Origin: Desulfonatronovibrio hydrogenovorans DSM 9292
Lineage (GTDB): Bacteria; Desulfobacterota; Desulfovibrionia; Desulfovibrionales; Desulfonatronovibrionaceae
Direction of reading: 5' to 3'
DNA length: 64,000 nt
NCBI RefSeq assembly: GCF_000686525.1
Contig: NZ_JMKT01000008.1
Coordinates: forward strand, 620,001-684,000
Positions within the stretch are counted from its first letter, which is position 1. Each line of letters begins with the position of its first letter. Below are positions 15,553 through 34,900 of the stretch, one piece after another. The position numbers and the translations under genes were made by a program. The notes beneath the pieces were generated by a model. It did not search any database, was not told the origin of the DNA, and saw only the letters and a program-made list of their open reading frames with translations.

Positions 15553-15629
15553 TGGTCGGGATGCGGGGATTCGAACCCCGGGCCTCAGCGTCCCGAACGC
15601 TGCGCTCTACCAAGCTGAGCCACATCCCG
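15553..15629 (-). tRNA. tRNA-Pro (anticodon CGG)
   Basis: A full cloverleaf of 77 bases on the minus strand. Acceptor CGGGATG pairs with CATCCCG, followed by discriminator A and an encoded CCA (15555-15553). D arm GCTC/GAGC with the AGCTTGGTA loop, anticodon stem CAGCG/CGCTG with loop TTCGGGA, hence anticodon CGG followed by G37 as in proline tRNAs, and T arm CGGGG-TTCGAAT-CCCCG. The C at position 1 is also typical of bacterial tRNA-Pro. It reads codon CCG. Confidence 0.96.
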
Positions 15630-15871: not shown

Positions 15872-17386
15872 GTGCTGATGGAAGTTAAGAATGACGCGGT
15901 GAAAATTCTGGTTGTTGATGACGAAGAAAGTCTCAGGGAGATCTGCAAGGACGCCCTTGTAGATGAGGGCTATCAGGTCCTCCAGGCTGAAGATGGTCGA
16001 GAGGCGTTGAGTATTCTGGCCGCCAATGATGACATCGACCTGATAGTCTCGGATCTGAGAATGCCGGTTATGAACGGGCTGGAGCTGCTGGAAAAGATCA
16101 AGGAAGTGAACCTGGATATAGATTTCCTGGTCATGACCGGTTTCGCCACCATTGAAACTGCGGTGGAATGCATGAAAATGGGGGCTGCTGACTATCTTCC
16201 CAAGCCTTTTAACATTAATCACCTGCTGGTCAAAGTCAGCAAGGTGGTCAAGGCCAGGAGGGCGAAGCAGGAACGGAAAAGGCTGAGCAATATTGTCCGC
16301 ATGCTCAACTTAAGCAACGCCCTCAATGCCCAGCTGGACCTGAAGTCCATATGTTATGAGTTTGTGCTCCAGGTTCAGAGAAATTTTTCACCAGAAAGTG
16401 CGGTTTTGTTTATCCAGAAAGATCAGGGAAACAGCCTGGGCAAGGCCGTTGTCCGGGGAAGGCTTTTCAGAGAAGACCCTGACTTTTTTGCCAGGGTTCA
16501 AAAGCTGGCCCAGGACTCATTGGAGAATGGATCGTCCTATCTGCTGGACAAGACCAGGGCTCAGGAACTGGCTATGTTTTCCGGACAGGAGTTCCCCTAT
16601 TCAATGCTTGTGGTCCCTCTTTTTTCCAGGATGAAAAAAGTCGGGGTGATAGTCCTGATTCGCAGAGACACTCAGCTGTTCACCAATGACGACCTCCAGC
16701 TTTTGAGTGTTTTTGCCGCTCATGTGGCCACAGCCATTCAGAACGCCAAAATGTACACCCGAATGCGGGATCAGAATATTGACATCATCAGATCCTACGC
16801 CAAAGCGGTTGAAGCCAAGGATTACTATACCAAGGGACATTCAGAGAGGGTCGCAGTCTACGCCATCAAACTGGGGAGTTATTTAAAGCTCGATACCAAG
16901 GAACTGGAAGCCCTTTATACCTCAGGTGTGCTTCACGACATCGGAAAGATAGGTATCCCGGATCATATTTTAAACAAGCCGTCCAGACTGGACGAGGAAG
17001 AATTCGAAGTCATGAAGTCCCACCCCAGCATTGCAAGGGACATTCTTTCACAGGTATGGTCCTTGAAGCATACCCTGCCGGTAGTTTATCACCACCATGA
17101 AAGGATCGACGGCAAGGGGTATCCGGATGGGATAATGAATGGCCAGATACCTTTCCTGGCCAAGGTGATCAGCGTGGTGGACGCATTTGAGGCCATGACC
17201 TCTGACCGGGCTTACCGCAGGGCTCTGGACTGGGAAAAGGCCCGGGATATTCTGCTCCAGGGCAGCGGGACCCAGTGGGAAAGCGATTTGGTGGACAGGT
17301 GGGTCAAACTGGTTTCTGAAATCGGATTTGACAATATTCAGAACGATACCCAGGACAATACCCTGCATTTTCACAGGAGTCATTAG
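15872..17386 (+). CDS. Response regulator with GAF and HD-GYP domains, likely c-di-GMP phosphodiesterase
   Basis: A 504-residue cytoplasmic protein with three domains. Receiver domain at about 10-125 with phosphoacceptor D61 (LIVSDLRMP) and the acidic pair in VVDDEE; a GAF-like domain at about 150-290 (FSPESAVLFIQKD to FAAHVATAIQNAKMY); and an HD-GYP domain at about 300-490 with HSERV, LHDIGKIGIPD and HHERIDGKGYPDG, the full set for c-di-GMP hydrolysis. Start GTG 15872 with AGGA upstream, or ATG 15878. First gene of the chemosensory cluster; cheB follows after 72 bases. It probably takes phosphate from the CheA of this cluster and lowers c-di-GMP, which would be sensed by the PilZ protein encoded at 21395. 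Confidence 0.93.
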   Translation: MLMEVKNDAVKILVVDDEESLREICKDALVDEGYQVLQAEDGREALSILAANDDIDLIVSDLRMPVMNGLELLEKIKEVNLDIDFLVMTGFATIETAVECMKMGAADYLPKPFNINHLLVKVSKVVKARRAKQERKRLSNIVRMLNLSNALNAQLDLKSICYEFVLQVQRNFSPESAVLFIQKDQGNSLGKAVVRGRLFREDPDFFARVQKLAQDSLENGSSYLLDKTRAQELAMFSGQEFPYSMLVVPLFSRMKKVGVIVLIRRDTQLFTNDDLQLLSVFAAHVATAIQNAKMYTRMRDQNIDIIRSYAKAVEAKDYYTKGHSERVAVYAIKLGSYLKLDTKELEALYTSGVLHDIGKIGIPDHILNKPSRLDEEEFEVMKSHPSIARDILSQVWSLKHTLPVVYHHHERIDGKGYPDGIMNGQIPFLAKVISVVDAFEAMTSDRAYRRALDWEKARDILLQGSGTQWESDLVDRWVKLVSEIGFDNIQNDTQDNTLHFHRSH

Positions 17387-17458
17387 CAGGATTTTTGGGG
17401 GCGGTCTTTTGATCGAGGTATGTTTTAATGGATACAGGCAACTAATTTTGGAAAAATT

Positions 17459-18541
17459 ATGAATATTATCAAGGTGGTTGTGGTTGATGATTCGGCCTTT
17501 ATGCGCAAGGCCATAAGCACCATGCTCAAAAAAGATCCGGGCATCGAAGTGGTGGGAATAGCCAGGAACGGCCAGGAAGGCCTGGACATGGTTCGAAAGC
17601 TGGATCCGGATGTGGTGACTATGGACATTGAGATGCCGGTTATGGACGGACTGACTGCTCTCCGGCATATCATGATGGAAATGCCCAGGCCAGTGATCAT
17701 GGTCAGCTCCCTGACTACTGAAGGGGCTGAGGCAACTCTTAAGGCCATGGATTACGGGGCAGTGGATTTTATCTCCAAGCAGCTTTCCAAGGTCAGCCTG
17801 GATATCGTTAAAATTGAAAAGGATTTACAGTCCAAAGTCAGGGCGGTGGCCAGGAAGCGGACCCAGATGACCCGTCTGGCTGCACTGCAGCGCCCCAGAA
17901 AGTTCAAAAAGCCGGTCAAGGAGATCACGCCAGCATCTGGAAGACTGATCCGGGATATTGTCGCCATAGGGGTGTCCACAGGCGGTCCTCCTGCCGTGCA
18001 AAAGGTATTGTCTGACCTGCCCGAGAACTTTCCAGGTTCAATACTTGTTGCCCAGCATATGCCAGGGGCGTTTACTGGACCCTTTGCCAAGCGCCTCAAC
18101 GACTCCACAGGGCTAAATGTCAAGGAAGCTGAAAACGGGGATCAGATTAGACCTGGCTGGGTTTACATCGCTCCTGGAGGAAGCCATCTGAAGATAAATC
18201 AGAAGGTCTCCAGGATTGATGTTTTGGTTTCATCCGAGCCGGCCGATGCTCTGTACAAGCCTTCGGTCAATGTCTTGTTCTCATCCGTGGCTGATGGAGT
18301 GGGTAAACGTGCCCTTGGAGTAGTGCTCACCGGCATGGGAAGCGACGGTCTCCTGGGAGCCAGGGACTTGAAGGCCAGGGGCGGTTTGCTTTTGGCTCAG
18401 AGCGAGGATTCCTGTGTTGTATATGGAATGCCCAAGGCTGTTGTTGAGGACGGGCTGGTGGACCAGGTGGTGGACCTGGAGGATATGTCCGTAATGATCA
18501 ATGCCTGCTTGTATGAAAGCAATATTCAGCAGGCCGGGTAA
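17459..18541 (+). CDS. cheB: Chemotaxis protein-glutamate methylesterase CheB
   Basis: A 360-residue CheB. The receiver domain (1-120) has D56 in TMDIEMPVMDG. After a linker the methylesterase domain (about 160-350) shows the catalytic triad: Ser in IGVSTGGPPAVQ, His in VAQHMPGAFTGPFAKRL and Asp in VLTGMGSDGLLGA. It removes methyl groups from receptor glutamates and works against CheR, encoded downstream. No receptor is encoded in the window, so the target receptor is elsewhere. Placed between the HD-GYP gene and the HEAT-repeat gene. Confidence 0.96.
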   Translation: MNIIKVVVVDDSAFMRKAISTMLKKDPGIEVVGIARNGQEGLDMVRKLDPDVVTMDIEMPVMDGLTALRHIMMEMPRPVIMVSSLTTEGAEATLKAMDYGAVDFISKQLSKVSLDIVKIEKDLQSKVRAVARKRTQMTRLAALQRPRKFKKPVKEITPASGRLIRDIVAIGVSTGGPPAVQKVLSDLPENFPGSILVAQHMPGAFTGPFAKRLNDSTGLNVKEAENGDQIRPGWVYIAPGGSHLKINQKVSRIDVLVSSEPADALYKPSVNVLFSSVADGVGKRALGVVLTGMGSDGLLGARDLKARGGLLLAQSEDSCVVYGMPKAVVEDGLVDQVVDLEDMSVMINACLYESNIQQAG

Positions 18542-18576
18542 GGGTGCCTGAAACCAGGTAAACAAGGCGGTTGCTT

Positions 18577-20505
18577 ATGTATGAAATGACCTCGACTCAG
18601 GTACTTGCGGCTTTGGAGAGCAGTGATCCTGAAAAACAAAGGGAGGGCGCCTTTGCAGCCAGGGATCTTAATCTGGTGGAGGCGGTTCCCCTTCTGGTCG
18701 GTCTTCTGGAAAGCACGAGCCTGGGAGCCCAGGAAGCAGCTGACATGGCTCTGAGGAAGATCGGGGGCCAGGAGAGCGTTCAGGCCCTGATACCCCTTTT
18801 GCGAAGCGATTCGGCCCAGATCCGGAACCTGGCCATGGACATCCTCAGACATGTTGGCAGTCAGGACATTGATTCCCTGATTGAGCTTTTGAACGATGAT
18901 GATCCGGACATGCGGATCTTTGCATCTGATATCCTGGGCGCAACAAAGTCATATCTTGGAGTAAACCCCCTCTGCCAAGTCCTGCTCCATGACCCGGAGG
19001 TCAATGTCCGGTATCAGGCTGCAGTCAGTCTTGGTGAGCTGGGCCGGCCTGAGGCATCCCAATGCCTGAACAGGGCTTTTCAGGATGAGGAATGGGTCCA
19101 GTATTCAGTAGTGGAAGCCCTTTCCAAGTTGAGGGACGAGTCCTCCACTAATGCTTTGATTAAAGCCTTGAAGGATTGTTCAGAGCTGGTCTGCTCCATG
19201 ATTGTGGACGCCCTTGGAGAAATGGGCAATGTCAAAGCTGTGCCCATGCTCCTGAAGAGGATGGAGTCTTCACCAACAGCCCTGACAAACAAGATCGCCA
19301 AGGCTGTGATCAAGATCCTGGGGGCCAAAGTTGCAGTATTTATGAGTGATGCGGAAAAGGATAGATTAAAGGACTATCTGTTGGCTGCTCTGGAAGACGA
19401 TGATGTGGATACCCAGGATGTGGCTGTTGTGGGGCTGGGCTATGTGGGGAATGAAAAGGCTTCGGCCAGGATTCTGAAGTTAGCTTCCAGCTTTGATCCA
19501 GATATGGATACAGATCGGCTGAACAGGGCTGAGGCAGCTCTGGTGTCCATCGGCTATACCGATTCTCTGGCTCTGGGGCTCATGTCGGATAATGAAGCCA
19601 AGGCCATGGTGGCTGTCAGGGCCCTTGGGAAGATCAGCAGTCCTCAGGCAGTTGAACGCCTGATGGAAGCCTTTGACAAGAAAAACCGGGATGTGCAGCG
19701 GGAAATCACCCGGGAGCTGTACAGATCAGCCGGATCTGAAGCAGCTGATTTTTTTGCCCGGATCCTCAGGACCCATGATGACGGGGATGTCCTGAAAAAC
19801 AGTTTAAGGTTCATAGGCAACAAGCTCAGGGATGAAAACCGGGTTCAGGATATTATGAATTTTCTGGAGCACCCCTGGGATGATGTTAAAGAGGTGGCCC
19901 TTGATTCGGTACTGACTATTGGCGGAGAAAAAGTACTGCAGGAATTTTTACCCATGTTCGAAAGCAGGGACCCTTTGAAAAGGCTTATGGCGGTGTACGC
20001 CTTTGGACGACTTGGAGCGACGGAGAATATAGCTTTGCTCAAGAAGGCTCTGGGTGATGAGCACCCTGATGTCAGGAAGATGGCCATTGAATCCATGACC
20101 AATGTCTGCCCCGAAGACCGGGAGGTTATTTCCCTGGTCCAAAGACTCCTTCAGGACCAGAACAGGGAAGTCCGCCTTGCACTGGTGGAGTTTTTCAGCA
20201 AGTGCCCCCATCCGGAAACCACTGATCACCTTATCCAAATCCTTGACGACCCTGATGAGTGGGTCAGGATAAGAGCCATTGAGGCCCTGGGTGAAAGAAA
20301 GGCCTCCCAAGTGGTACCCAGGATCATATCCCTTTGGGACGAGAGTTCCAAGCTGCAAAAAATCAAGATTGTCGAATCACTGGGCGGGATCGGAGGAGCC
20401 AGCTCATTCAGGGCACTGCTGGACATCCTTGATGATCCGGATCCGGAGATCCAGGATGCAGCTGAAAGGACCCTGGACAGGCTGCAGGAACAGGATATGG
20501 AGTAA
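18577..20505 (+). CDS. HEAT-repeat protein of the chemosensory cluster
   Basis: A 642-residue protein made almost wholly of HEAT/PBS-lyase-like repeats of about 31 residues, for example QALIPLLRSDSAQIRNLAMD, IELLNDDDPDMRIFASDILG and QILDDPDEWVRIRAIEALGE, repeated about 18-20 times. Such solenoids are protein-binding scaffolds. The start is taken at ATG 18577 (MYEMTSTQ) with AGGCGG upstream; a TTG two codons earlier is possible. It is co-directional with cheB (30 bases) and cheR (6 bases), and HEAT-repeat genes are found in similar che clusters of Desulfovibrio, so it may organise or tune the signalling array. No catalytic motif is seen. Confidence 0.88.
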   Translation: MYEMTSTQVLAALESSDPEKQREGAFAARDLNLVEAVPLLVGLLESTSLGAQEAADMALRKIGGQESVQALIPLLRSDSAQIRNLAMDILRHVGSQDIDSLIELLNDDDPDMRIFASDILGATKSYLGVNPLCQVLLHDPEVNVRYQAAVSLGELGRPEASQCLNRAFQDEEWVQYSVVEALSKLRDESSTNALIKALKDCSELVCSMIVDALGEMGNVKAVPMLLKRMESSPTALTNKIAKAVIKILGAKVAVFMSDAEKDRLKDYLLAALEDDDVDTQDVAVVGLGYVGNEKASARILKLASSFDPDMDTDRLNRAEAALVSIGYTDSLALGLMSDNEAKAMVAVRALGKISSPQAVERLMEAFDKKNRDVQREITRELYRSAGSEAADFFARILRTHDDGDVLKNSLRFIGNKLRDENRVQDIMNFLEHPWDDVKEVALDSVLTIGGEKVLQEFLPMFESRDPLKRLMAVYAFGRLGATENIALLKKALGDEHPDVRKMAIESMTNVCPEDREVISLVQRLLQDQNREVRLALVEFFSKCPHPETTDHLIQILDDPDEWVRIRAIEALGERKASQVVPRIISLWDESSKLQKIKIVESLGGIGGASSFRALLDILDDPDPEIQDAAERTLDRLQEQDME

Positions 20506-20511
20506 CCCTTG

Positions 20512-21390
20512 ATGAACTTGTTTTCTAAGAGCATAACCCTTCGAAAAGACTTGAAGATCGGGGATGAAGAGTTTGTCCAGTTGCGGGATTTCATCTACGG
20601 GCAAAGCGGAATATTCATTGGCGACAACCGCAAGTACCTGTTGGAAAACCGTCTGGCCAACAGGCTCAAGGAAAATAACCTTAAAAGCTTTGGCGAGTAT
20701 TATTATTTTCTGCGTTATGATCCCGGCCGTAAAGCTGAGTTGAACAAGCTGTTTGAAGTCATAACCACCAATGAAACCAGTTTTTTCCGTAATCCGCCTC
20801 AGATCAAGGTATTTCAGGATGTGGTACTGAAAAAGATCCTGCAGGAAAAAAGGACAAAATCACAGAGAAATCTGCATATCTGGTCAGCAGGATGCTCAAC
20901 CGGGGAAGAGCCTTATACCCTGTCCATAGTCCTGCACGAAGTGCTCAAGAATGAACTGGAACAGTGGAGGATCAGGATAACGGCCAACGACCTGTCTGCT
21001 GGGGTGCTGGCTGCGGCAAAAAGGGCTGTATATTCCCAGTACAGCCTCAGGACCACTCCGCCGGAGATCACCAAAAGATACTTTGCTGAAGAAAGTCCGG
21101 GCAGATTCATACTGCAGGACCGGGTCAAGAGACTTGTGGAGTTCGGACAGATAAATCTGAGTGACCGGTTTCAGCTGAAAAGGGTACCCAGATCCGACGT
21201 AGTTTTTTGTCGAAATGTGATCATCTATTTTGATGATGAAATGAAGAAAAACGTGATCAGTTCATTTTACGACAACCTCTTGCCAGGGGGTTACCTTTTA
21301 ATCGGTCATTCCGAATCTCTGCATAATATTTCCAGGGCGTTTCGGCCGATTCACCATCCGGGAGCCATTGTGTATCTAAAGGAGGGATAG
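20512..21390 (+). CDS. cheR: Chemotaxis receptor methyltransferase CheR
   Basis: A 292-residue CheR that methylates receptor glutamates with SAM. The N-terminal helical domain (about 20-85) is followed by the catalytic domain: TTNETSFFRNPPQ, the SAM site IWSAGCSTGEEPYTLS, ITANDLSAGVLAAAKRAVYS and DVVFCRNVIIYFD, all typical. Start ATG 20512 lies 6 bases after the HEAT gene stop, with GGAG overlapping that gene end. The stop TAG (21388-21390) is directly preceded by AAGGAGG, which serves as ribosome site for the next gene. Confidence 0.96.
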   Translation: MNLFSKSITLRKDLKIGDEEFVQLRDFIYGQSGIFIGDNRKYLLENRLANRLKENNLKSFGEYYYFLRYDPGRKAELNKLFEVITTNETSFFRNPPQIKVFQDVVLKKILQEKRTKSQRNLHIWSAGCSTGEEPYTLSIVLHEVLKNELEQWRIRITANDLSAGVLAAAKRAVYSQYSLRTTPPEITKRYFAEESPGRFILQDRVKRLVEFGQINLSDRFQLKRVPRSDVVFCRNVIIYFDDEMKKNVISSFYDNLLPGGYLLIGHSESLHNISRAFRPIHHPGAIVYLKEG

Positions 21391-21394
21391 GCTT

Positions 21395-21793
21395 ATCAAA
21401 GAGGATCAAGACAGACGGGAATATACCAGGATCCCCAAGAAGTTCAGGGTGGAAATCCAGGAACTGCTTTTTCCCTTAAGCAGTCAAAAAAAGACCCGGG
21501 TTGAATCGGCTGACATAAGCGAAGGCGGGCTCAGGGTCAGTTGTAACAGACGATTCAGCAACAACCAGAAGGTTCAGGTCAAGGTTTTCATTCCAAGTCT
21601 GAACAAATACCATCCCGGCTTTTTCAAGGTTTTTGAAAGTGATACTGGACAGTTTCTCCAGGCTGTGGCTGAAGTGGCCTGGGCCAGGGAAGTGGTTCCT
21701 CTGGTCAAATATGAACTGGGGCTGAGGTTTGTCGATGTATATGAAGACGACTGGCAGGCGTTGCGAAAACTTATTCTGAAGTTCAAGCCGTAA
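21395..21793 (+). CDS. PilZ-domain protein, probable c-di-GMP sensor, with non-ATG start
   Basis: A PilZ-domain protein of about 132 residues. The c-di-GMP binding signature RREYTRIPKKFRVEI requires translation from well upstream of the first ordinary start codon in frame (GTG 21449), which would cut off both arginines. The frame is closed by a TAA near 21378, and between that and the signature there is no ATG, GTG or TTG. ATC at 21395 lies 9 bases after AGGAGG and gives a sensible start; this is a rare start codon. The second PilZ element is seen as DISEGGLRVSC (D/NxSxxG). It lies between cheR and parA, so c-di-GMP changes made by the HD-GYP protein may be read here. A sequencing error that removed an ATG is the alternative. 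Confidence 0.75.
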   Translation: MKEDQDRREYTRIPKKFRVEIQELLFPLSSQKKTRVESADISEGGLRVSCNRRFSNNQKVQVKVFIPSLNKYHPGFFKVFESDTGQFLQAVAEVAWAREVVPLVKYELGLRFVDVYEDDWQALRKLILKFKP

Positions 21794-21813
21794 GTCATAC
21801 AAAGGGGTTTGGT

Positions 21814-22590
21814 TTGCCGGGTTACACAATCGCAGTGGCCAATCAAAAAGGTGGAGTTGGAAAGACCACCACCGCCCTGAGTCTTGGATCGTCTTTTGCC
21901 CTGATGGGGAAAAAGACCCTGGTCCTGGATCTTGACCCCCATGCCTGTGCTTCCATTCATCTTGCCTTTTTCCCGGAAAAGACCCAGCGTACGGCCCTGG
22001 ATATATTCAAAGCCCATTCTGATATTTCTGCAGTGGGCAAGGGCCCGGTTTATCAGGACCGCACAAGATCCAGCTTTGACTTTGTGCCCAGCAGCATCCA
22101 CCTGGCCGAACTGGACGCGGATCTCAAGGATGTGCCCGGCAAGGGGCTTATTTTAAAAAAATGGCTGGGCCAGGTAAAAAAAGACTATGATGTTGTTATT
22201 ATCGACTGTCCTCCCCAGATGGGAGTTATCCTGGTCAATGCCCTGGTGGCCTCGGATCTGGTGATTATTCCTACTCAGACCGATTTTCTGGCCCTGCACG
22301 GATTCAAATTGATTTTCGATACCATGCGTCTGCTAAACAAAGCTCTGGAAAAACCGATAAAATATAAAGTGCTGGCCACCATGTATGATCGACGGGCAGG
22401 GGCCTGCAGGCGAATATTGAATATTCTCAGAAAAAAGATGGGTCCGAGGTTTTTTGAAACGGTCATCAATACTGATACCAAGTTCAGGGAGTCCAGCGCC
22501 AAGGGAAAGGTAATCCATGAATATGCTCCCAAATCCAGGGGTGCTCTGGAATACCTGCTGCTGGCCAAGGAAATAGCAAAAGGCTTGTAA
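21814..22590 (+). CDS. parA: ParA-family ATPase of the chemosensory cluster
   Basis: A 258-residue MinD/ParA-like ATPase starting at TTG 21814 behind AAGGGG. Walker A KGGVGKTT is at residues 12-19 with the deviant signature lysine, Walker A' is in VLDLDPHACAS, Walker B in VVIIDCPPQMG. Family members form ATP-dependent dimers on DNA and position cargo. Within che clusters such proteins (ParC-like, PpfA-like) distribute chemotaxis arrays to poles or to daughter cells. Its position directly before a CheW with a long N-terminal extension fits that role; plasmid partition is unlikely, since no parB is present. Confidence 0.9.
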   Translation: MPGYTIAVANQKGGVGKTTTALSLGSSFALMGKKTLVLDLDPHACASIHLAFFPEKTQRTALDIFKAHSDISAVGKGPVYQDRTRSSFDFVPSSIHLAELDADLKDVPGKGLILKKWLGQVKKDYDVVIIDCPPQMGVILVNALVASDLVIIPTQTDFLALHGFKLIFDTMRLLNKALEKPIKYKVLATMYDRRAGACRRILNILRKKMGPRFFETVINTDTKFRESSAKGKVIHEYAPKSRGALEYLLLAKEIAKGL

Positions 22591-22592
22591 GA

Positions 22593-23306
22593 ATGAAGAC
22601 ACCGGAACAGTACTTTGAAGAACAGGAATTTGACCTGGAAGCTTCCCCAGTTGAAAGTGAGCCATCCCCCAAAGAGAAGTTATTCATTCAGAAATACCTT
22701 GGGGGAGAGTCTGAGCAGACTAGGGCATCGCTGGCCCAAGCCGACGATTCCGAGTCATTGCAGGTTCCACAGGCCCCGGTTTTATCCCGGGAATCCGGCT
22801 TCAAAGAAAGACAGGCTGTCCCTAAGGCAAAGACCGGTACTGACAGGAGCGATCTGGCCAGACTCAGGGGGCTGGACGAAGTTCAGCTGGTCAGTTTTTT
22901 CCTGGATGAACAGGAATACGCATTGCCCATCGAAACGGTAAAGGAAGTCATCAAGTTTATCCAGCCCACCAGGCTGCCTGCCGCGCCCAGTTATCTTGAA
23001 GGTGTTGTCAATCTTCGGCAGAAGGTGACGCCCATAGTCAGGCTGGCTTATCTTCTCAATCCGAGCAGGGAGCATCATCCTCAAAGCAAATTTATTGTGG
23101 TCTGCCATCAGGAAGGCTTCCAGGTCGGCCTTTTGGTTGAGAGCATCGCCACCATGTACAGGATGCCGGGTAAGGATATTGAATGGAATGTCGAGTCAGT
23201 CCTTGGGATGAGCTCCAGCTACGTATCAGCATTGATTAAAAACCGGGAAAAGATTATTTCAATTCTGTCCATTGACAGGATCGTTGATCATCTCCTGTCA
23301 GAGTAG
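22593..23306 (+). CDS. cheW: CheW-domain coupling protein with N-terminal extension
   Basis: A 237-residue protein whose C-terminal part (about 95-235) is a CheW domain: VSFFLDEQEYALPIETVKEV, ILPxxxLP-like PTRLPAAPSYLEGVVNLR, and KFIVVCHQEGFQVGLLVESI. CheW links receptors to CheA. The first 90 residues are acidic and low in complexity, as in ParP-type proteins that have a ParA-interacting N-terminus before a CheW-like domain. It starts 2 bases after parA ends, so the two are very probably co-translated and may act together in placing the signalling array. Confidence 0.92.
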   Translation: MKTPEQYFEEQEFDLEASPVESEPSPKEKLFIQKYLGGESEQTRASLAQADDSESLQVPQAPVLSRESGFKERQAVPKAKTGTDRSDLARLRGLDEVQLVSFFLDEQEYALPIETVKEVIKFIQPTRLPAAPSYLEGVVNLRQKVTPIVRLAYLLNPSREHHPQSKFIVVCHQEGFQVGLLVESIATMYRMPGKDIEWNVESVLGMSSSYVSALIKNREKIISILSIDRIVDHLLSE

Positions 23307-23359
23307 TTTTGAACAGCAAAAGACGGCTGCCGATTTAAGACATTTAGTTGGGAGGAGCT

Positions 23360-23728
23360 ATGCCCAAGCATATAATGGTCGTGGATGATTCCAAGACAGT
23401 GGTCAATCTGATCGCCTTCATTGTTAAAAAAGAAGGGTTCCAGGTAACCACGGCCGAGGACGGCCTGGACGCCCTGGAAAAACTTTATTCCACGCCTGGA
23501 ATTGATCTGATTATTTCTGATGTTAACATGCCAAGGATGGATGGGTTTACTTTTGTCAAGAATCTCAGAGAACAGGAAGCCTTCAGAGATACACCAATAA
23601 TCATTCTTTCCACTGAAGGACAGGAAAAAGATATTCAGCAAGGCCTGGGATTGGGTGCCAATCTTTACATGGTCAAACCGGCCCAGCCCGACATGCTGGT
23701 TAAAAATGTTAAAATGCTTTTGGGATGA
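23360..23728 (+). CDS. cheY: CheY-like single-domain response regulator
   Basis: A stand-alone receiver domain of 122 residues. Acidic pair in VVDDSKTV, phosphoacceptor Asp in LIISDVNMPRMDG, conserved Thr/Ser switch in IILSTEGQ and Lys in YMVKPAQPD. The start at ATG 23360 has GGGAGGAG directly upstream; an in-frame TTG at 23348 lies before that ribosome site. The gene precedes cheA by 43 bases. It is the likely direct output of the CheA of this cluster; whether it acts at a flagellar motor, pili or elsewhere cannot be told. Confidence 0.95.
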   Translation: MPKHIMVVDDSKTVVNLIAFIVKKEGFQVTTAEDGLDALEKLYSTPGIDLIISDVNMPRMDGFTFVKNLREQEAFRDTPIIILSTEGQEKDIQQGLGLGANLYMVKPAQPDMLVKNVKMLLG

Positions 23729-23771
23729 TCATCAGATTTCCTCCAAATAACTTTCAATTATCAGGACTAAC

Positions 23772-26459
23772 ATGAGTCAAGATTTTTTCGACCCTGAAGT
23801 ATACTCAGATTTTGTCATAGAAGCCAGGGAGCATCTTGAAACCATTGAGCCCAAGCTTCTGGAACTGGAAAAGAATCCTGATAACCTGTCTCTGCTTGAC
23901 GATATTTTTAGGCCCATGCACTCTTTGAAGGGGGCCTCTGGTTTCCTGGGTCTCCTGGAAATGAATTCCCTGGCCCATAAGGGTGAGAATATCCTGGACG
24001 AGCTTCGCAAGGGAAGGATCAAGGTCACCGCAGGGATTATGGACCTGATCCTTGAGGCTACTGACGCCCTCAGGGAGATGGTGGAGAATCTGGAGGCCCT
24101 GGGAAATGAAGGGAACGTTGATACTCAGCATATCATAAAGCATATTGATGATTTTCTGGAAAAAGGCGAGGAGGCAACATCTCCATCCAAGACCGGGAGC
24201 GGTCAGTCAGGCAAGCCTTCTTCAGTCCCTCCGGGTGGAGTTTATGCCCTGACCATGGTCAGTCAGGACCATTTGAGTGATTTTCTGGAAGAAGTCAGGG
24301 AGATTCTGGCTGAAGTCGGCTCCATTCTGCTTTCCCTGGAAAAAGACCCCAAGGGCAGTCAGGAATCAATAAATGATCTGTTCAGGCATTTCCATAACAT
24401 CAAAGGCAACAGTGCCATAATCGGTTTTAAGGAGATCAACGAACTGACCCATGAAGTTGAAACTCTGCTCAACAGAGTCAGAAACGGGGAGGTGGAGATC
24501 CACAACCAACTCGTGGACATGCTCCTGGCTGTAACAGATACTGTTGAATCAGCCCTGAATAATGTGGACAGGGAAAAGGCCGAGGTCAGATCCATTGATA
24601 TTTCTGAAATTCTCAGTCAGGTCCGCAGCGTTCTGGATTCCGGCGGCGGGTCAGGAGGCGAGGCTCAGGATTCATCGGCTCAGCCCGTGGTCCTGAATGA
24701 TCCGGAAACAGGCCAAAAGGATGCTCCTGTTCTGAGTGGTGAACAGGAACTGGATATTGATCCCGAAGATCTGCAGATCTTTGAGCAGGCAGTGGCCCAG
24801 CAATTCGAGAATATCAAATATGCCCTGGAAAAAATAACTGCTGGAGATTTTGACAAAGAACTTGTGGACGGATTGTACAGATCCCTGGTTACAGTCCAGA
24901 ACTCCACAGGGTATATGGGCTTTGATGAGTTGAAAACCTATGCCCAGCGTACAGCCGATCTGGTGGATCAGGGTCGGAAATCCGACCTGGACTTTGCTCT
25001 CATGGCTGACATCCTGAAGCAGGAAGTCGGGATACTGGAATCCATGGTCAAGTCCAAGCTCCAAAGTATCTATCATCCACAGGAAAAATCCGTGGATGCC
25101 CAGGTCCAGGAGGCCGGGCCCCAGGCCCAGGAGCAGGGAACAGAAGATTGCGATCCACCAAGAGATGAGCCTGCCCTGGACGGCTCCCAAGATGCTCAGA
25201 CAGGCCAGGACCAAGAATCTCAGATGATCATGGATCAGTCCGATGCCAAGGACAAGTCAAAGCCTGCGATCGCCTCAACAATCAGAGTGGATCACTCCAA
25301 ACTTGATGATCTTATGAATCTTATTGGTGAGCTGATCATCAACCGCAACAGGTTTGCCATGCTTTCCAAGTCCCTGGAAGAAGGCCATGATGTTGTTGAG
25401 ATAGCACAACAGCTGACTGAGACCACTAATTCCATGGCCCGAATTTCCGACGACCTGCAGGTCACCATCATGAATGTGCGCATGGTACCTGTTAAGTCTG
25501 TTTTTACCAAGTTTCCCAGGCTGGTCCGGGATTTGAGCAGAAAGAGCAATAAAAAGGTTCAGTTGATTACCGAGGGTGAGGAGACTGAACTGGATAAAAG
25601 TGTTGTTGAACTCATTGGAGATCCTCTGGTCCATTTGATCAGGAATTCCGTAGATCACGGTCTGGAGCCAGAAAAAGAACGCATGGACGCAGGCAAAGAA
25701 CCTACAGGTACAGTCTGGCTCAGGGCAGCCCATAGAGGGAATTCCGTGGTTATCGAGGTGGAAGACGACGGCCGGGGAATCAACCCGGAAAAAATGAAGA
25801 ATAAAGCCGTAGAAAAGGGGATCATCACCCAGGAAGAGGCCCAGAACATGGAGGATCAGGAAGCTATTGACCTGATCTTTGCCCCTGGCTTTTCCACGGC
25901 AGAAAAAGTCACAGACATTTCCGGCCGCGGGGTGGGCATGGATGTTGTCAAGAACAATATCAAGAATCTCAAGGGAAATGTCGTGGTCAATTCAAACCTT
26001 GGCAAGGGCACAAGGTTCTTCATTACCCTGCCCTTGACCCTGGCCATTATTGACGCCCTTATGGTCCGGTCCGGCGGGCAGACTTATGCCATTCCCCTGG
26101 ATGCTGTTTCTGAAACAACCAAGATCGAAGCGGCCAGGTTAAGCGAAATCAACAACCGCAAGGCAGTGACTTTGCGGGGAGAAGTACTGGGACTGGCTGA
26201 TCTTGATGCTTTGCTGGACTTACCTTCAACCGGTGCAGGCCGGGAAGTCCTTCCTGTTGTCATAATCACTGTGGGAGACCGAAGGCTTGGACTGGTGGTG
26301 GATACCTTGCTGGAAAGACAGGAAGTGGTTATCAAATCCCTTGGCGAATATATGGGTGACCAGCCGGGCATTTCCGGAGCCACCATCATGGGAGACGGCA
26401 GCGTGGTCCTCATCCTGGACCCCCATGAGGTTTACAAAATGGCTACCAGCAAGATATAG
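23772..26459 (+). CDS. cheA: Chemotaxis histidine kinase CheA with multiple Hpt domains
   Basis: An 895-residue CheA, longer than the usual 650-700. Hpt1 at 1-105 has H50 in MHSLKGASGF; Hpt2 at about 165-270 has H208 in FHNIKGNSAI; a third Hpt-like helical bundle at about 325-430 has LYRSLVTVQNSTGYMG in the matching place with no His, so it cannot be phosphorylated. A Gln/Asp-rich linker leads to the dimerisation helices (about 495-560, KLDDLMNLIGELIINRN), the ATPase domain (NSVDHGLE, DDGRGIN, GFSTAEKVTDISGRGVGMDVV) and a CheW-like regulatory domain (about 755-890). It phosphorylates CheY, CheB and probably the HD-GYP regulator. The clearest P2-like domain is missing; its place is taken by the extra Hpt modules. 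Confidence 0.96.
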   Translation: MSQDFFDPEVYSDFVIEAREHLETIEPKLLELEKNPDNLSLLDDIFRPMHSLKGASGFLGLLEMNSLAHKGENILDELRKGRIKVTAGIMDLILEATDALREMVENLEALGNEGNVDTQHIIKHIDDFLEKGEEATSPSKTGSGQSGKPSSVPPGGVYALTMVSQDHLSDFLEEVREILAEVGSILLSLEKDPKGSQESINDLFRHFHNIKGNSAIIGFKEINELTHEVETLLNRVRNGEVEIHNQLVDMLLAVTDTVESALNNVDREKAEVRSIDISEILSQVRSVLDSGGGSGGEAQDSSAQPVVLNDPETGQKDAPVLSGEQELDIDPEDLQIFEQAVAQQFENIKYALEKITAGDFDKELVDGLYRSLVTVQNSTGYMGFDELKTYAQRTADLVDQGRKSDLDFALMADILKQEVGILESMVKSKLQSIYHPQEKSVDAQVQEAGPQAQEQGTEDCDPPRDEPALDGSQDAQTGQDQESQMIMDQSDAKDKSKPAIASTIRVDHSKLDDLMNLIGELIINRNRFAMLSKSLEEGHDVVEIAQQLTETTNSMARISDDLQVTIMNVRMVPVKSVFTKFPRLVRDLSRKSNKKVQLITEGEETELDKSVVELIGDPLVHLIRNSVDHGLEPEKERMDAGKEPTGTVWLRAAHRGNSVVIEVEDDGRGINPEKMKNKAVEKGIITQEEAQNMEDQEAIDLIFAPGFSTAEKVTDISGRGVGMDVVKNNIKNLKGNVVVNSNLGKGTRFFITLPLTLAIIDALMVRSGGQTYAIPLDAVSETTKIEAARLSEINNRKAVTLRGEVLGLADLDALLDLPSTGAGREVLPVVIITVGDRRLGLVVDTLLERQEVVIKSLGEYMGDQPGISGATIMGDGSVVLILDPHEVYKMATSKI

Positions 26460-26537
26460 CAGGTCTACGGATATTGGATGTCCGGTTTGGCAGGGTGCTG
26501 AGACCACAATTTTTTTGCTGGTGCAGACAAGTTTTTA

Positions 26538-27056
26538 ATGGAACAAAGAAGATCAAAAATAATTTCCCGCCGGGACCTGTTTATGGGGTTTATGAGCCGG
26601 GTCCGGGGGCAGGCAATGGAAGATCAGGCTTCTGGAATTGATCCGGAGGTGTTTGAGGCGGACAGGCTTTTACGGGAAAAAAGATATGCAGAAGCAGCAG
26701 AGAGCTTCGCAGCCTGCCTGAAAAAAGAACCAGCCCATGAAGAGGCCCTGCGTAAGCTGGGCTACTGCAAATTAAAGCTTAAAGAGACCCGGGAGGCCAG
26801 AGAAGTCTGGGAAAGACTGATGCAGTTGAGGCCTAGGGATCACTTTGCAGTTCTCTATACCGGACTGAGCCATGCCATGGACAGGGATGTCCACCAGGCA
26901 GTGCAGATCTGGAAATCCTATTTTAATATCAAACAGCCGCACATTCAGAGGGAGATCAACCTGATTCTTGCTCTGCACGAGAAGGGGGATGAGCTGGACC
27001 CGGTCGAACTGGTCGATTCAGTGGAACAGGCCATAGCCAGACAGAAGCAGGGCTAA
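26538..27056 (+). CDS. TPR-repeat protein at the end of the chemosensory cluster
   Basis: A 172-residue soluble protein with two to three tetratricopeptide repeats at about 38-140 (LLREKRYAEAAESFAACLKK, EEALRKLGYCKLKLKETREA, AVLYTGLSHAMDRDVHQAVQ). No signal peptide. The N-terminus is basic (RRSKIISRRDLFMGFMSRVRG). TPR proteins mediate protein contacts; a role as an adaptor of the signalling system is inferred only from position, 78 bases after cheA and in the same direction. It is the last gene of the cluster and converges on the next gene with 45 bases between. Confidence 0.8.
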   Translation: MEQRRSKIISRRDLFMGFMSRVRGQAMEDQASGIDPEVFEADRLLREKRYAEAAESFAACLKKEPAHEEALRKLGYCKLKLKETREAREVWERLMQLRPRDHFAVLYTGLSHAMDRDVHQAVQIWKSYFNIKQPHIQREINLILALHEKGDELDPVELVDSVEQAIARQKQG

Positions 27057-27972: not shown

Positions 27973-28368
27973 ATGGACGATTACTTGAAGCAGGCTTTGG
28001 AGATAGTTAAGGCTCAGGCTAGTGTTCGCAATATGACAGAGGAAGAGATCAATTCCATGATCATGACCCTGAGCCAGGGGATCAAATCGGCCATGGAAGG
28101 AACTGCTCCTGGTCAGGATCAGGATGTCCCTGCAGTGGATCCCAGGAAATCCATCCGGGAAAAAACAGTGGTATGTCTTGAATGCAGTAAGTCATTCAAG
28201 GTGTTGACCAAAAGACATCTGGCCTCCCATGGACTCACTCCTGAGGAATACAAGGAAAAATGGGGTTTTAAAAAGAACACTTCTCTGGTGGCTAAAGGTC
28301 TGGCCAGGGAAAGGCGTAAAAAAATGCAGGACATGCGCCTGTGGGAAAAGAGATCGCCCAAAAAATAG
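27973..28368 (+). CDS. mucR: MucR/Ros-family transcriptional regulator
   Basis: A 131-residue zinc-finger DNA-binding regulator. The Ros/MucR core runs from about residue 58 to 110: CLECSKSFKVLTKRHLASHG supplies the C-x2-C and H-x(4)-H metal ligands, followed by LTPEEYKEKWGF, a family hallmark. The C-terminal tail is basic (RERRKKMQDMRLWEKRSPKK). In alphaproteobacteria such proteins control exopolysaccharide, motility and cell-cycle genes; sulfate reducers also carry them. Ribosome site TGGAGGAAA sits before ATG 27973. The long A+T-rich leader may be autoregulated. A bidirectional terminator follows. Confidence 0.92.
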   Translation: MDDYLKQALEIVKAQASVRNMTEEEINSMIMTLSQGIKSAMEGTAPGQDQDVPAVDPRKSIREKTVVCLECSKSFKVLTKRHLASHGLTPEEYKEKWGFKKNTSLVAKGLARERRKKMQDMRLWEKRSPKK

Positions 28369-31988: not shown

Positions 31989-34900
31989 CTAGTTTTCCTG
32001 CATGTGCCACGAACTGCGACCACTTCGAATGTTTTTAATGGGCAGTTCGGGCTGGTCGATTTCAATTATTTCTCCGGTGCTGGTCTGAACAAACACCTTA
32101 GCTCCTTCTTGTTTGCCTAGATGCAGGCTCGGGGTGATAGTCATTCCTGGACCCAATGATCTTGTGAATACAACATATCCATCGGGGTTTTGCTGGCCAA
32201 ATACGTTTCTGATCCAAGAGGTTCCTGTAAGATAGTAGAGGCTATAAAGCATGCTTTCTCCTTCACTGTCGCAAACATCATCAACTCCACCCGGACTGTA
32301 TGTGGTAAAGTTAAGCAGTCCGCCCAGAAGAGTAGGCTGTCCAAGCACCCTTTCACCTGGAGAGAGATCTCTGTACCAACCATCCTTGTATTGGGTGATA
32401 TGCCGTCTTAGGTCGAAAAAGTTATTGACTTCAAAGTGCGGGTTATTCGGTATGCATCCGGTTCCACCGCCAGCACAAAGAAGGGCGTAGCTGGACTCAT
32501 CAATGAGGATGTCAGTAACGTCCACTAAGCCGGACTTTGCTACCTGACTGAAATTGTAGGCATTGGAATTTGTCTGTTTGGGTTCGTTAAGTCCGTAGAT
32601 TGTTTGAACATCATCATTTAGTTTGTCACTAACTGTCCAGAATTTTCCAGATCCGAAATAAACCCACACGTCATTTCCGTGCCAGCCAATATTGGGGGCA
32701 CCACTGACCGGTTCTCTGGCATCAAACATGGATTTGAATTCCCAGTTTTTTGGGTCCACATCATTTTCAACCTTCAGCCTCTGCATGCCTCCACCCAGCC
32801 GGTTTCCCTGTCTTTCTGTGGTGCCAAAGTAGAGAATGTCTGAGAAAAAATCAAAGTCATAGTCAACGCTTACGAATCCTGAAGAGATAAATGACTGGTT
32901 GCTGGGAAGCTCTTTTACGCCGGCCTGGTCAGCTGAAGGGGCCTTATTGGGGATGCGCAAAGCCTTTCTGGGAGAGGTTGTCAGATAATTTTTTGCGGGT
33001 ATGACCACAACCTTACCTTTTTGAGAGCTCTGGATGATGATTTCATCACTGTCCGGGCCAGTCCCGACTACCAGATACCAGGCCACCTCCATAGTGTTAT
33101 TGTCCCGAATAGGAACAAGGGTTGGAGTGGAGACAGTGTAGCCGAAATTAACGCAACTGCTGTTTCCTGCGCAGGCATGGTGACCAGTGTCAATGGTTGT
33201 TTCGCCTAAAAGTGTAGGTGGCTGTTCCGGGTCAGTGATATCCAGGATGAAATATGATGAACTGAATTCACGGCCAGTGCCTGAATCCTGCATATAACCT
33301 CCGCCCAGGCGCATTCCACCGACAAGAATGGTTCCCCATCCTCCTGGATGGGTGCTTGAAGGCTCAAAGATCTTAGCGTCAAATATTCTTGGCTGAAGAT
33401 CAACATAGTACTGGTGGGCATAATTGGGACTGGTCAAACATTCCAGATGGGGGAGGATGTTATATGGAACATATGCCCACATTTCAGCCCCGAGTTTGGG
33501 GCCGGATTCCACGCAAGATGGAGTTCTGCAGAACGACTTGTTCAGGTGGTTGTAAAATCCTGCATTGACAGCATGGAGCATGCCGTCATTGGCCCCGAAA
33601 TAGACCATGAGTCTGCGGTTTCTGTATTGTTTGTAAAATTGACTGTAAGTTATGTCACCCCAGAAAAGATCATAGTTTTCAGATGGTGGACCTACCACCA
33701 TGGGTGATGAATGGACCACGTCCCCCAAGCGCCAAGTCACAGTAGTGTCCAGGTTTCCGTCTTTACTGGTGTCCACCCGTATTTGTCTGCTGCGCATTCC
33801 TTCTTGATCCAGCCCCCTGATCCAGTCAATGATCTCTGCATCAACAAAAGGGATATCCGGGGCATTGCCTGTAATGAAAGGCACAACTTCATCATCATGA
33901 ACAGCCCCGTCACCTGCCTTGTCATTCCAGGTGAAGATATATCTGAAATCAGAGTCTGAATTATAAAATGAGCGGTTGGTGGGAATAAAGGAGTCAGAAA
34001 TATTATTCAACCATTCCGCAGCTGACCAGAGATACTTTATTTCATCAAGCTCTCTCAATTGTCCGGTACAATGGCCGTTGACAATCTCTCCATCTACACA
34101 AGCACGGGTTTTCTTCTCGGACTGATCAAAGAAGTAGATGAGTCTTTTATCAAAAATATCCAGCTTATTGTTGGAGTTGGTGTCTTCATAGAGCCTCCCA
34201 TAATCATCAACCAGGATGGCATGGACATCCCCGGTCCAGGTGACATGGTTGTTCTGATCATCCACCCGGTCAGGCCAGAACACTGCCTGGTAAAGAGCTC
34301 CAGCACCGCTTCTGGAAGTGGAAATCACTGAAGCCGCAGAACCGGAAGCCTGCCGGGTGAGCATCAGCCTGAAGGCCCGGTTGAGCTGCTGTTCAAGACG
34401 TAACGGGTTGGCAACGTAAAAATAGTGATCAGGGACACCGTCACCGGATTGATCCCAATCCCGTCCATGTTCGTAGCCACCCCACTTGGCTGCGTACCAG
34501 AGGGGATCCTTGAGCAAAGTTGCGGCAGGTGTGGTGCTGGGAGTGAATGTCCTTGTGGCTGACAAGGGCAATCTTGTACCGCCTGGATCTTCCCATCTCC
34601 GGTTGCTGGTAACATCTCCATAAAAAAAACTATCCGGTGGATTTTCCGGATCCAGAAAATATATTACATCTGTTTGAGCAGTATTATGAGGATTGTTGTA
34701 GATATTTGATACATCCAGATAGGTTCCATCAGTAGTTGTTCCTGATATTATGTACCCTAAATGCTGAACAATGCTGCCTGCAGCATATTCTGAAGTCAGG
34801 GTTATGCTAACGGTATTGTCTGGGTTTACCTGATATTCATAAATCACTATGGCATCCATGTCGTGATCAGCAGCCTGCTCCACATCTTCAAAGTTGATCC

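Follow-up and report, generated by a model that had tools for sequence, protein, structure and literature searches.

A cluster of ten chemotaxis-related genes lies in the genome of Desulfonatronovibrio hydrogenovorans DSM 9292 (RefSeq assembly GCF_000686525.1; 16 contigs totalling 2.94 Mb, completeness 98.87%), within a stretch of 64,000 nucleotides (contig NZ_JMKT01000008.1, positions 620,001 to 684,000 of the forward strand) that is called here the window. In the list of open reading frames of the window, the ten occupy positions 15872-27056, all on the + strand and separated by gaps of at most 78 bp. By Pfam they code, in this order, for a REC-GAF-HD-GYP protein, CheB, a HEAT-repeat protein, CheR, a PilZ protein, a ParA-type ATPase, CheW, a CheY-type receiver, CheA and a TPR protein, which confirms the ten co-directional genes and the domains listed in an earlier sequence-only reading of this DNA. 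The Pfam scan of the ten genes detected no receptor, no flagellar gene (both as that reading had said) and no GGDEF match. The cluster is very probably the core flagellar chemotaxis operon of the Desulfovibrionales, with the layout of the cheA3 operon of Desulfovibrio vulgaris, an F4-like CheA and accessory proteins for which roles are proposed below. The function is thus ordinary and the operon type is known; the accessory parts are unusual and conserved, and the novelty lies in the pairing of ParA with an adaptor and in the neighbourhood of CheR. Below, L, G, C and f numbers are our labels for loci, genomes, contigs and families.

Conservation of the cluster has been followed in 48 loci around CheA matches (20 named and 28 from other relatives; a Planctomycetaceae match, L072, the G022 locus L104 and three loci of the own genome were omitted), and, because the loci were chosen by CheA, all counts are conditional on this protein. 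CheR was found in 46 of the 48, and the two loci without it, L055 and L067, lie on contigs 3.3 and 4.0 kb long; the remaining 46 loci were used for counting, with partial non-independence since L052 and L073 belong to the same contig. The HEAT protein and CheY accompany CheR in every one of the 46, so that HEAT, CheR, CheY and CheA occur jointly in 46/48 loci, an association beyond chance. ParA and the operon CheW are each present in 41/46, PilZ in 21/46 and TPR in 5/46, while CheB (at least 38/46) and HD-GYP beside the core (at least 9/46) are lower bounds, as some contigs stop close to the locus; a tenth HD-GYP candidate, in L101, matched only remotely (66 bits) and was discounted. Therefore, the core CheB-HEAT-CheR-(PilZ)-ParA-CheW-CheY-CheA is conserved across the order, as the sequence-only reading had proposed checking, and the TPR and HD-GYP genes, found in only 5/46 and 9/46 loci, stand outside it. 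Over all ten genes the closest named locus is L052, from a Desulfonatronovibrio metagenome-assembled genome (MAG). A tRNA-Pro(cgg) gene occurs in 22 of the 25 loci scanned, which argues that the operon has been inherited in place. In an even sample of 99 genomes from the phylum, of which three belong to the order, no match outside Desulfovibrionales fell within the score range of the orthologues, the best being that of G119 with 485 bits.

The link to flagella comes from co-occurrence in 61 genomes. The CheA orthologue was defined as a best match of at least 583 bits (paralogues reach at most 357), plus that of the 43%-complete genome G057, whose fragments are 64-67% identical; FliM was called main-type at 180 bits or more, divergent FliM scoring 134 at most. 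The orthologue is present in 37/61 genomes, and all 37 carriers possess main-type FliM, against 9 of the 24 others (Fisher p 1.9e-8), which comprise, besides these nine, seven genomes with divergent FliM and eight with none. PilT above its cut-off shows no such association (31/37 carriers against 21/24 others, Fisher p 1.0): in six carriers no PilT match exceeds the cut-off, and PilT-bearing genomes without FliM (e.g., G018) have no CheA orthologue. Both p-values are overstated, as the genomes are related to each other, and some are incomplete drafts. The pattern is repeated within families, the orthologue being found in 10/11 main-type FliM genomes and 0/7 others of f1, in 5/5 and 0/6 of f2, and in 10/10 and 0/1 of f5. 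In D. vulgaris, the mutant in cheA3 has been reported to lose its motility halos, which the cheA1 and cheA2 mutants do not, and to show no capillary accumulation towards sulfate or lactate in spite of a retained flagellum; deletion of the flp pilin left the halo unchanged (PMC3944678). In this bacterium cheA3 closes a che operon that the authors discuss together with parA and describe as conserved among Desulfovibrio, and a predicted FliA regulon including cheA3 is cited (PMC3944678). DVU2075, listed as a ParA protein (PMC11784015), has a locus number three away from that of cheA3 (DVU2072), a distance that fits the gene order ParA-CheW-CheY-CheA.

The architecture of CheA points in the same direction. 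Its N-terminal part, searched in separate pieces, gave three Hpt matches (3.6e-15, 1.1e-15 and 3.3e-4, the third under the Pfam gathering score), and the relatives L074 and L084 have three Hpt stretches each; neither a P2 nor a receiver domain was found by Pfam in the operon CheA. In a published study of CheAs, all F4 proteins have three Hpt domains, about 93% of multi-Hpt CheAs belong to the type IV pilus (Tfp) or alternative cellular function (ACF) classes, and more than 90% of multi-Hpt CheAs bear a receiver, the trend being 94% in Tfp (PMC10782961). Because of the three Hpt domains and the lack of a receiver, assignment by architecture to class F4 is likely. The traits of the Tfp class (multi-Hpt CheA with receiver, association with pili) are not seen here, there being no receiver and no association with PilT, and those of the ACF class (CheA receiver, diguanylate cyclase output) are equally missing, since CheA lacks the receiver and the ten genes include no GGDEF match. 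Another CheA of the same genome (C9, L094:11147-14383) has one Hpt, three CheW stretches and a receiver, and is encoded beside two methyl-accepting chemotaxis proteins (MCPs) of a different hairpin type.

Features of the chemotaxis cluster and its tRNA neighbour (positions in the window)
Feature	Position	Strand	Basis and remarks
REC-GAF-HD-GYP response regulator, probable c-di-GMP phosphodiesterase	15872..17386	+	Pfam; motifs HD LHDIGKIGIPD and GYP HHERIDGKGYPDG visible
CheB methylesterase (REC + CheB)	17459..18541	+	Pfam
HEAT-repeat protein, 644 aa, adjoins CheR	18571..20505	+	Pfam
CheR methyltransferase	20509..21390	+	Pfam
PilZ protein of one domain, motifs RxxxR and DxSxxG; ATC as probable start codon	21395..21793	+	Pfam, motif, start-codon inspection
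ParA-type Walker ATPase (KGGVGKTT)	21814..22590	+	Pfam; best solved matches are Soj/ParA entries
CheW-domain protein, conserved head MKTPEQYF...EKLFIQKYLG and variable linker, ~95-aa N-terminal extension	22593..23306	+	Pfam, alignment
CheY-type single-domain receiver	23348..23728	+	Pfam; sequence distant from motor-type CheY
CheA: three Hpt (third weak, without histidine motif), P3, P4, CheW	23772..26459	+	Pfam
TPR protein, family-level addition	26538..27056	+	Pfam
tRNA-Pro (cgg), neighbour by position, outside the system	15553..15629	-	tRNA-Pro(cgg) also in 22 of 25 scanned loci

The first of the unusual parts is the pair formed by ParA and the operon CheW. Across 26 aligned sequences, read up to the last CheW block, the operon CheW consists of a conserved head, a variable linker that is often proline-rich (not in all rows) and a CheW domain. 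Of the 46 loci, 41 have ParA together with the head-bearing CheW and 5 have neither; one is never found without the other. In L059-L062, CheY comes 86-88 bp after CheR, ParA and CheW being gone, and in L079 (family f3) PilZ alone stands between CheR and CheY. The genome from which L079 comes (G019) has no CheW match reaching the head and has short CheWs elsewhere, while each of seven other genomes has a single head-reaching CheW (from residue 1-3; in G056 from residue 25) together with short CheWs elsewhere. In the own genome short CheWs are encoded on C13 and on C16, and the gene of a 40H-like receptor follows immediately after the one on C16. A tree places the operon CheW apart from canonical CheW (99/99) and from the P5 domain of CheA (100/99). 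A comparable arrangement is known in Vibrio, where ParP has an N-terminal ParC-binding domain, a proline-rich linker and a CheW-like domain, the latter reported to form a clade of its own, nearer to CheA P5 than to CheW, and where parC lies immediately upstream in the che operon (PMC5706961). Both systems thus share a ParA-type ATPase gene right upstream of a head-linker-CheW-domain gene within a che operon; they differ in that the operon CheW domain does not come out closer to P5 in this tree, uncertain because of its long branches, in that the heads are alike by layout only, and in the phylum. The balance of these observations leans, by a modest amount, to the operon CheW being a ParP-like adaptor.

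Alternatively, the operon CheW could be a plain coupling protein whose tail is disordered, and ParA could position an unrelated cargo such as the flagellum, members of the ParA family being able to position many cargoes; a full CheW domain and a strongly variable linker would agree with this. Such an explanation is rather unlikely, given that the head is conserved across families and the linker is not, that ParA and CheW are missing jointly wherever either is missing, and that canonical CheWs are encoded elsewhere, one of them directly before a 40H-like receptor. Flagellar placement is the role of FlhF and FlhG, and flhF and a flhG-type gene are encoded separately in this genome.

The second unusual part is the neighbourhood of CheR. 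The HEAT gene and cheR share the same strand in 46/46 loci, and their spacing is -4 to 11 bp in 40 of them; in five of the other six the longest frames overlap, and in L083 the distance is 112 bp. The pair extends wider than this operon, as in a che cluster from beyond the order (L123) a HEAT protein with 31% identity over 601 aa precedes CheR, a one-Hpt CheA being present. The same locus also codes for a CheW-CheZ fusion protein (L123:4736-6049). In many Desulfovibrio-type loci CheR has 449-558 aa, against the usual ~292, because of an N-terminal extension (L096:9660-10223, L059:7816-8643, L057:6469-7050). The possibility that this extension is a fused PilZ was considered and rejected, since it is N-terminal and gave no Pfam match in the 3/3 proteins tested.

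In all 21 loci in which PilZ was found, its frame directly follows that of CheR in the frame list, starting -187 to 207 bp from the end of CheR. The cyclic di-GMP (c-di-GMP)-binding motif of PilZ proteins comprises RxxxR and [D/N]xSxxG; in 13 aligned sequences both arginines of RxxxR and a GG pair are invariant, and the PilZ of the window carries the complete motif. The start listed for its gene, GTG at 21449, would drop RxxxR, and no ATG, GTG or TTG exists upstream of the motif. Therefore pilZ begins upstream of 21449, likely at an ATC at 21395, which has a Shine-Dalgarno-like AGGAGG in front of it; ATC is also found in L052 and ATT in L088, and the rare start codon seems to be common to one genus. 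Regarding the HD-GYP protein, the sequence-only reading had assigned to it the making of c-di-GMP. HD-GYP proteins hydrolyse this molecule, so that the assignment has to be reversed: with HD-GYP and PilZ present and no GGDEF found, the cluster can lower and read c-di-GMP. The operon-type HD-GYP is found only where PilZ occurs (9/9 loci).

Two partial precedents exist for these neighbours of CheR. MapZ, a PilZ protein of Pseudomonas aeruginosa, acts as an inhibitor of CheR1 when c-di-GMP is present (PMC6370697). Both cases tie a PilZ with the c-di-GMP motif to a CheR of a flagellar pathway, by binding in P. aeruginosa and by gene position here; the likeness seen is that of the PilZ domain, and a profile search of solved chains returned no MapZ among its four matches (three of them short and to designed proteins, the fourth a weak one to YpfA). 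Another precedent is that of the archaeon Halobacterium, in which the HEAT_PBS protein OE2401F, encoded in the che region, is essential for taxis (PMC2666748). This protein differs in being archaeal; its partners in pull-downs were CheD and OE2402F (of the CheF family), and its proposed action is towards the motor; its authors were unable to define a reliable set of orthologues (PMC2666748).

On the output side, two CheY proteins have to be distinguished. Elsewhere in the genome, a row of genes comprises flhB, flhA, flhF, a flhG-type ATPase, fliA and a CheY (flhF being below the NCBIfam cut-off and the ATPase named by position). This fliA-linked CheY matches solved chemotaxis CheYs at 2e-49 (4hns) and 9e-44 (2fka), which we take to be from Vibrio and, for the 2fka group, from enteric bacteria. 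The operon CheY has its best match at 4e-27 to a response regulator (4ja2); it also matches the CheY entries 6azr (3e-26) and 4h60 (2e-23) and, at only 2e-17, the 2fka group. A search of the genome for CheZ gave no match. Because a motor-type CheY is encoded behind fliA and no CheZ was found, it is plausible that the operon CheY serves as a phosphate sink.

On the input side, the term receptor-less used in the sequence-only reading need not apply, for the genome contains 18 MCP matches (L017 and L018 sharing one 602-aa frame), of which 13 are of one hairpin type; 16/18 were aligned, L011 and L014 being typed by the C-terminal helix only. The sole member of this type compared, L001, is longer than the Tsr entry 1qu7 by two heptads per helix and hence 40H-like. 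L008 and L014 are incomplete and identical in their overlap, so that the receptors may number 12 instead of 13. All 13 lie more than 70 kb from any cheA of the same contig. The MCPs that adjoin other cheA genes are different: L013, beside the C11 cheA, is shorter by three heptads per helix, and L015 and L016, beside the C9 cheA, lack 21 residues on the N-terminal helix, their C-terminal side aligning ambiguously. The scattered 40H-like MCPs, 12 or 13 in number, are thus most likely the receptors of the operon, a pairing that we infer from these hairpins.

A second explanation for the whole cluster would be a system of the ACF type, a class with a non-motility output such as diguanylate cyclase, in which REC-HD-GYP is the main output, PilZ the reader and the level of c-di-GMP, and with it biofilm formation, the target. 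The presence of REC-HD-GYP and PilZ inside the operon and the encoding of the motor-type CheY away from it would suit this idea, as would a 5.1-fold increase of the DVU2075 ParA in the biofilm of an adhesin mutant of D. vulgaris (PMC11784015). It is nevertheless highly unlikely, as HD-GYP and PilZ occur in 9/46 and 21/46 loci although the CheR-CheY-CheA core is present in all, every carrier has main-type FliM, and the phenotype of the cheA3 mutant is a loss of taxis (PMC3944678). Finally, the Tfp-class system controlling twitching, close to the link to type IV pili suggested by the sequence-only reading, is scarcely credible despite a PilY1-type gene ~5 kb downstream, PilT-family matches above the cut-off in the genome and the ~93% of multi-Hpt CheAs that are Tfp or ACF (PMC10782961), since there is no association with PilT across the 61 genomes (6/37 carriers being without it over the cut-off), main-type FliM is present in every carrier, CheA is without a receiver domain, the PilY1 gene is on the opposite strand past unrelated genes, and CheA3 of D. 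vulgaris acts in a directional motility that is tied to the flagellum and whose halo is spared by deletion of the flp pilin (PMC3944678).

Several observations weigh against the preferred reading, a flagellar chemotaxis operon with the accessory roles mentioned. The match to D. vulgaris rests on layout and locus numbers. The sequence-only reading had set against its own proposal an ordinary flagellar class with fli genes nearby; the flagellar part of that alternative stands, by co-occurrence (37/37) and by the D. vulgaris phenotype, but the nearby fli genes do not, FliM being at C8:435 kb and the che genes at C8:636-647 kb, ~200 kb apart. In the four single-contig relatives with the orthologue (G024, G025, G026, G056) FliM is at least 165 kb from the operon. 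A strict sigma-28 pattern has a single match in the window, within parA and at chance level, and a scan of 21 upstream regions with a looser consensus revealed no site clearly exceeding shuffles. Nine main-type FliM genomes, eight of them from one genus, have no CheA orthologue, so that this CheA is not the sole means of steering flagella in the order; in f3 the orthologue is found in just 4/12 FliM genomes, the other eight being all of one genus, and the fit in f5 hinges on a single FliM-less genome. With respect to the accessory parts, PilZ was absent from the results in 25/46 loci, including the Desulfovibrio-named ones, mostly with a CheR-ParA gap of 7-45 bp, and a link between PilZ and CheR therefore cannot be general; in the 13 aligned PilZ Gly takes the place of the motif serine in three (L079, L081, L102) and Asn that of the Asp in one (L083). 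In the tree, the operon CheW does not come out nearer to P5 and forms a single clade in only 40% of bootstraps, and long branches make this tree uncertain. The joint loss of ParA and CheW concerns adjacent genes, for which one deletion each suffices, and two groups of loci only. The eight f3 genomes with main-type FliM and no such CheA (G028, G036, G040, G044, G048, G052, G058 and G060) belong to genus g14, of which G032 does have the CheA.

If the operon is a flagellar chemotaxis operon, a path for the signal can be proposed. The scattered 40H-like receptors would signal through the stand-alone canonical CheWs to the three-Hpt CheA, whose phosphate would pass to CheB, to the operon receiver (possibly acting as the sink) and to the fliA-linked CheY of the motor type; the methylation of the receptors would be set by CheR and CheB. 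ParA and the operon CheW might place or segregate the array, with the head binding to ParA and the CheW domain inserted into the array. The HEAT protein could be a scaffold or a targeting partner of CheR, and PilZ, when occupied by c-di-GMP, might modulate CheR in a MapZ-like manner. The REC-HD-GYP protein, found only beside PilZ, would then lower c-di-GMP on kinase output and relieve the control exerted by PilZ. The fullest version of this scheme, a c-di-GMP-gated adaptation (a HEAT-PilZ-CheR complex with CheA-driven REC-HD-GYP feedback on methylation) plus a positioning pair of ParA and a CheW paralogue that is analogous to ParC/ParP and perhaps independently evolved, is tentative and, on balance, doubtful. 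The sequence-only reading had likewise joined che functions with c-di-GMP reading and ParA placement; as a reading this stands, the conservation data fitting both, and the contacts that it implies are conjectured from gene order and domains.

The D. vulgaris Hildenborough operon (DVU2072 and upstream genes) shares with the present one a cheA that comes last in a che operon discussed with parA, as well as being one of three cheA clusters and conserved among Desulfovibrio (PMC3944678). The two types differ in HD-GYP and PilZ: the Desulfovibrio-named loci that were examined yielded neither, with the exception of PilZ in L056, a Desulfovibrionaceae MAG. Within the library searched, the literature on DVU2072, DVU2073 and DVU2075-DVU2078 consisted of the cheA3 study and a proteome table with DVU2075, and the main text of the cheA3 paper does not mention HEAT, PilZ or HD-GYP (PMC3944678). 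The extra parts are thus conserved and little studied, and the literature listings for the phylum contained no study of such array placement or of a coupling of c-di-GMP to adaptation. The cluster most likely steers flagella, and it provides a testable parts list for the principal operon by which these sulfate reducers perform chemotaxis. If the proposed links are true, arrays can be placed by a second route, and c-di-GMP is coupled genetically to the adaptation of receptors.

A few further observations concern the annotation and the surroundings of the cluster. For eight cluster proteins, NCBIfam gave no family above its cut-off among the matches listed, these being complete for HEAT, PilZ, ParA, CheW and TPR, and the best 25 of 97 (HD-GYP), of 96 (CheY) and of 27 (CheA). 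Elsewhere in the genome, on C9 (L127:4983-9041), genes for a CheW, a REC-SpoIIE phosphatase, a 150-aa frame and CheB-like and CheR-like proteins lie together in a fetched stretch with no cheA. The pilus genes that the sequence-only reading had placed 5 kb on are represented by a PilY1-type gene at 31989-36854, coding for a 1621-aa protein with a PilY1 propeller domain, but this gene is on the - strand and behind several unrelated genes. Shortly 3' of the operon, a Ros/MucR-type regulator is encoded at 27973-28365 of the window.

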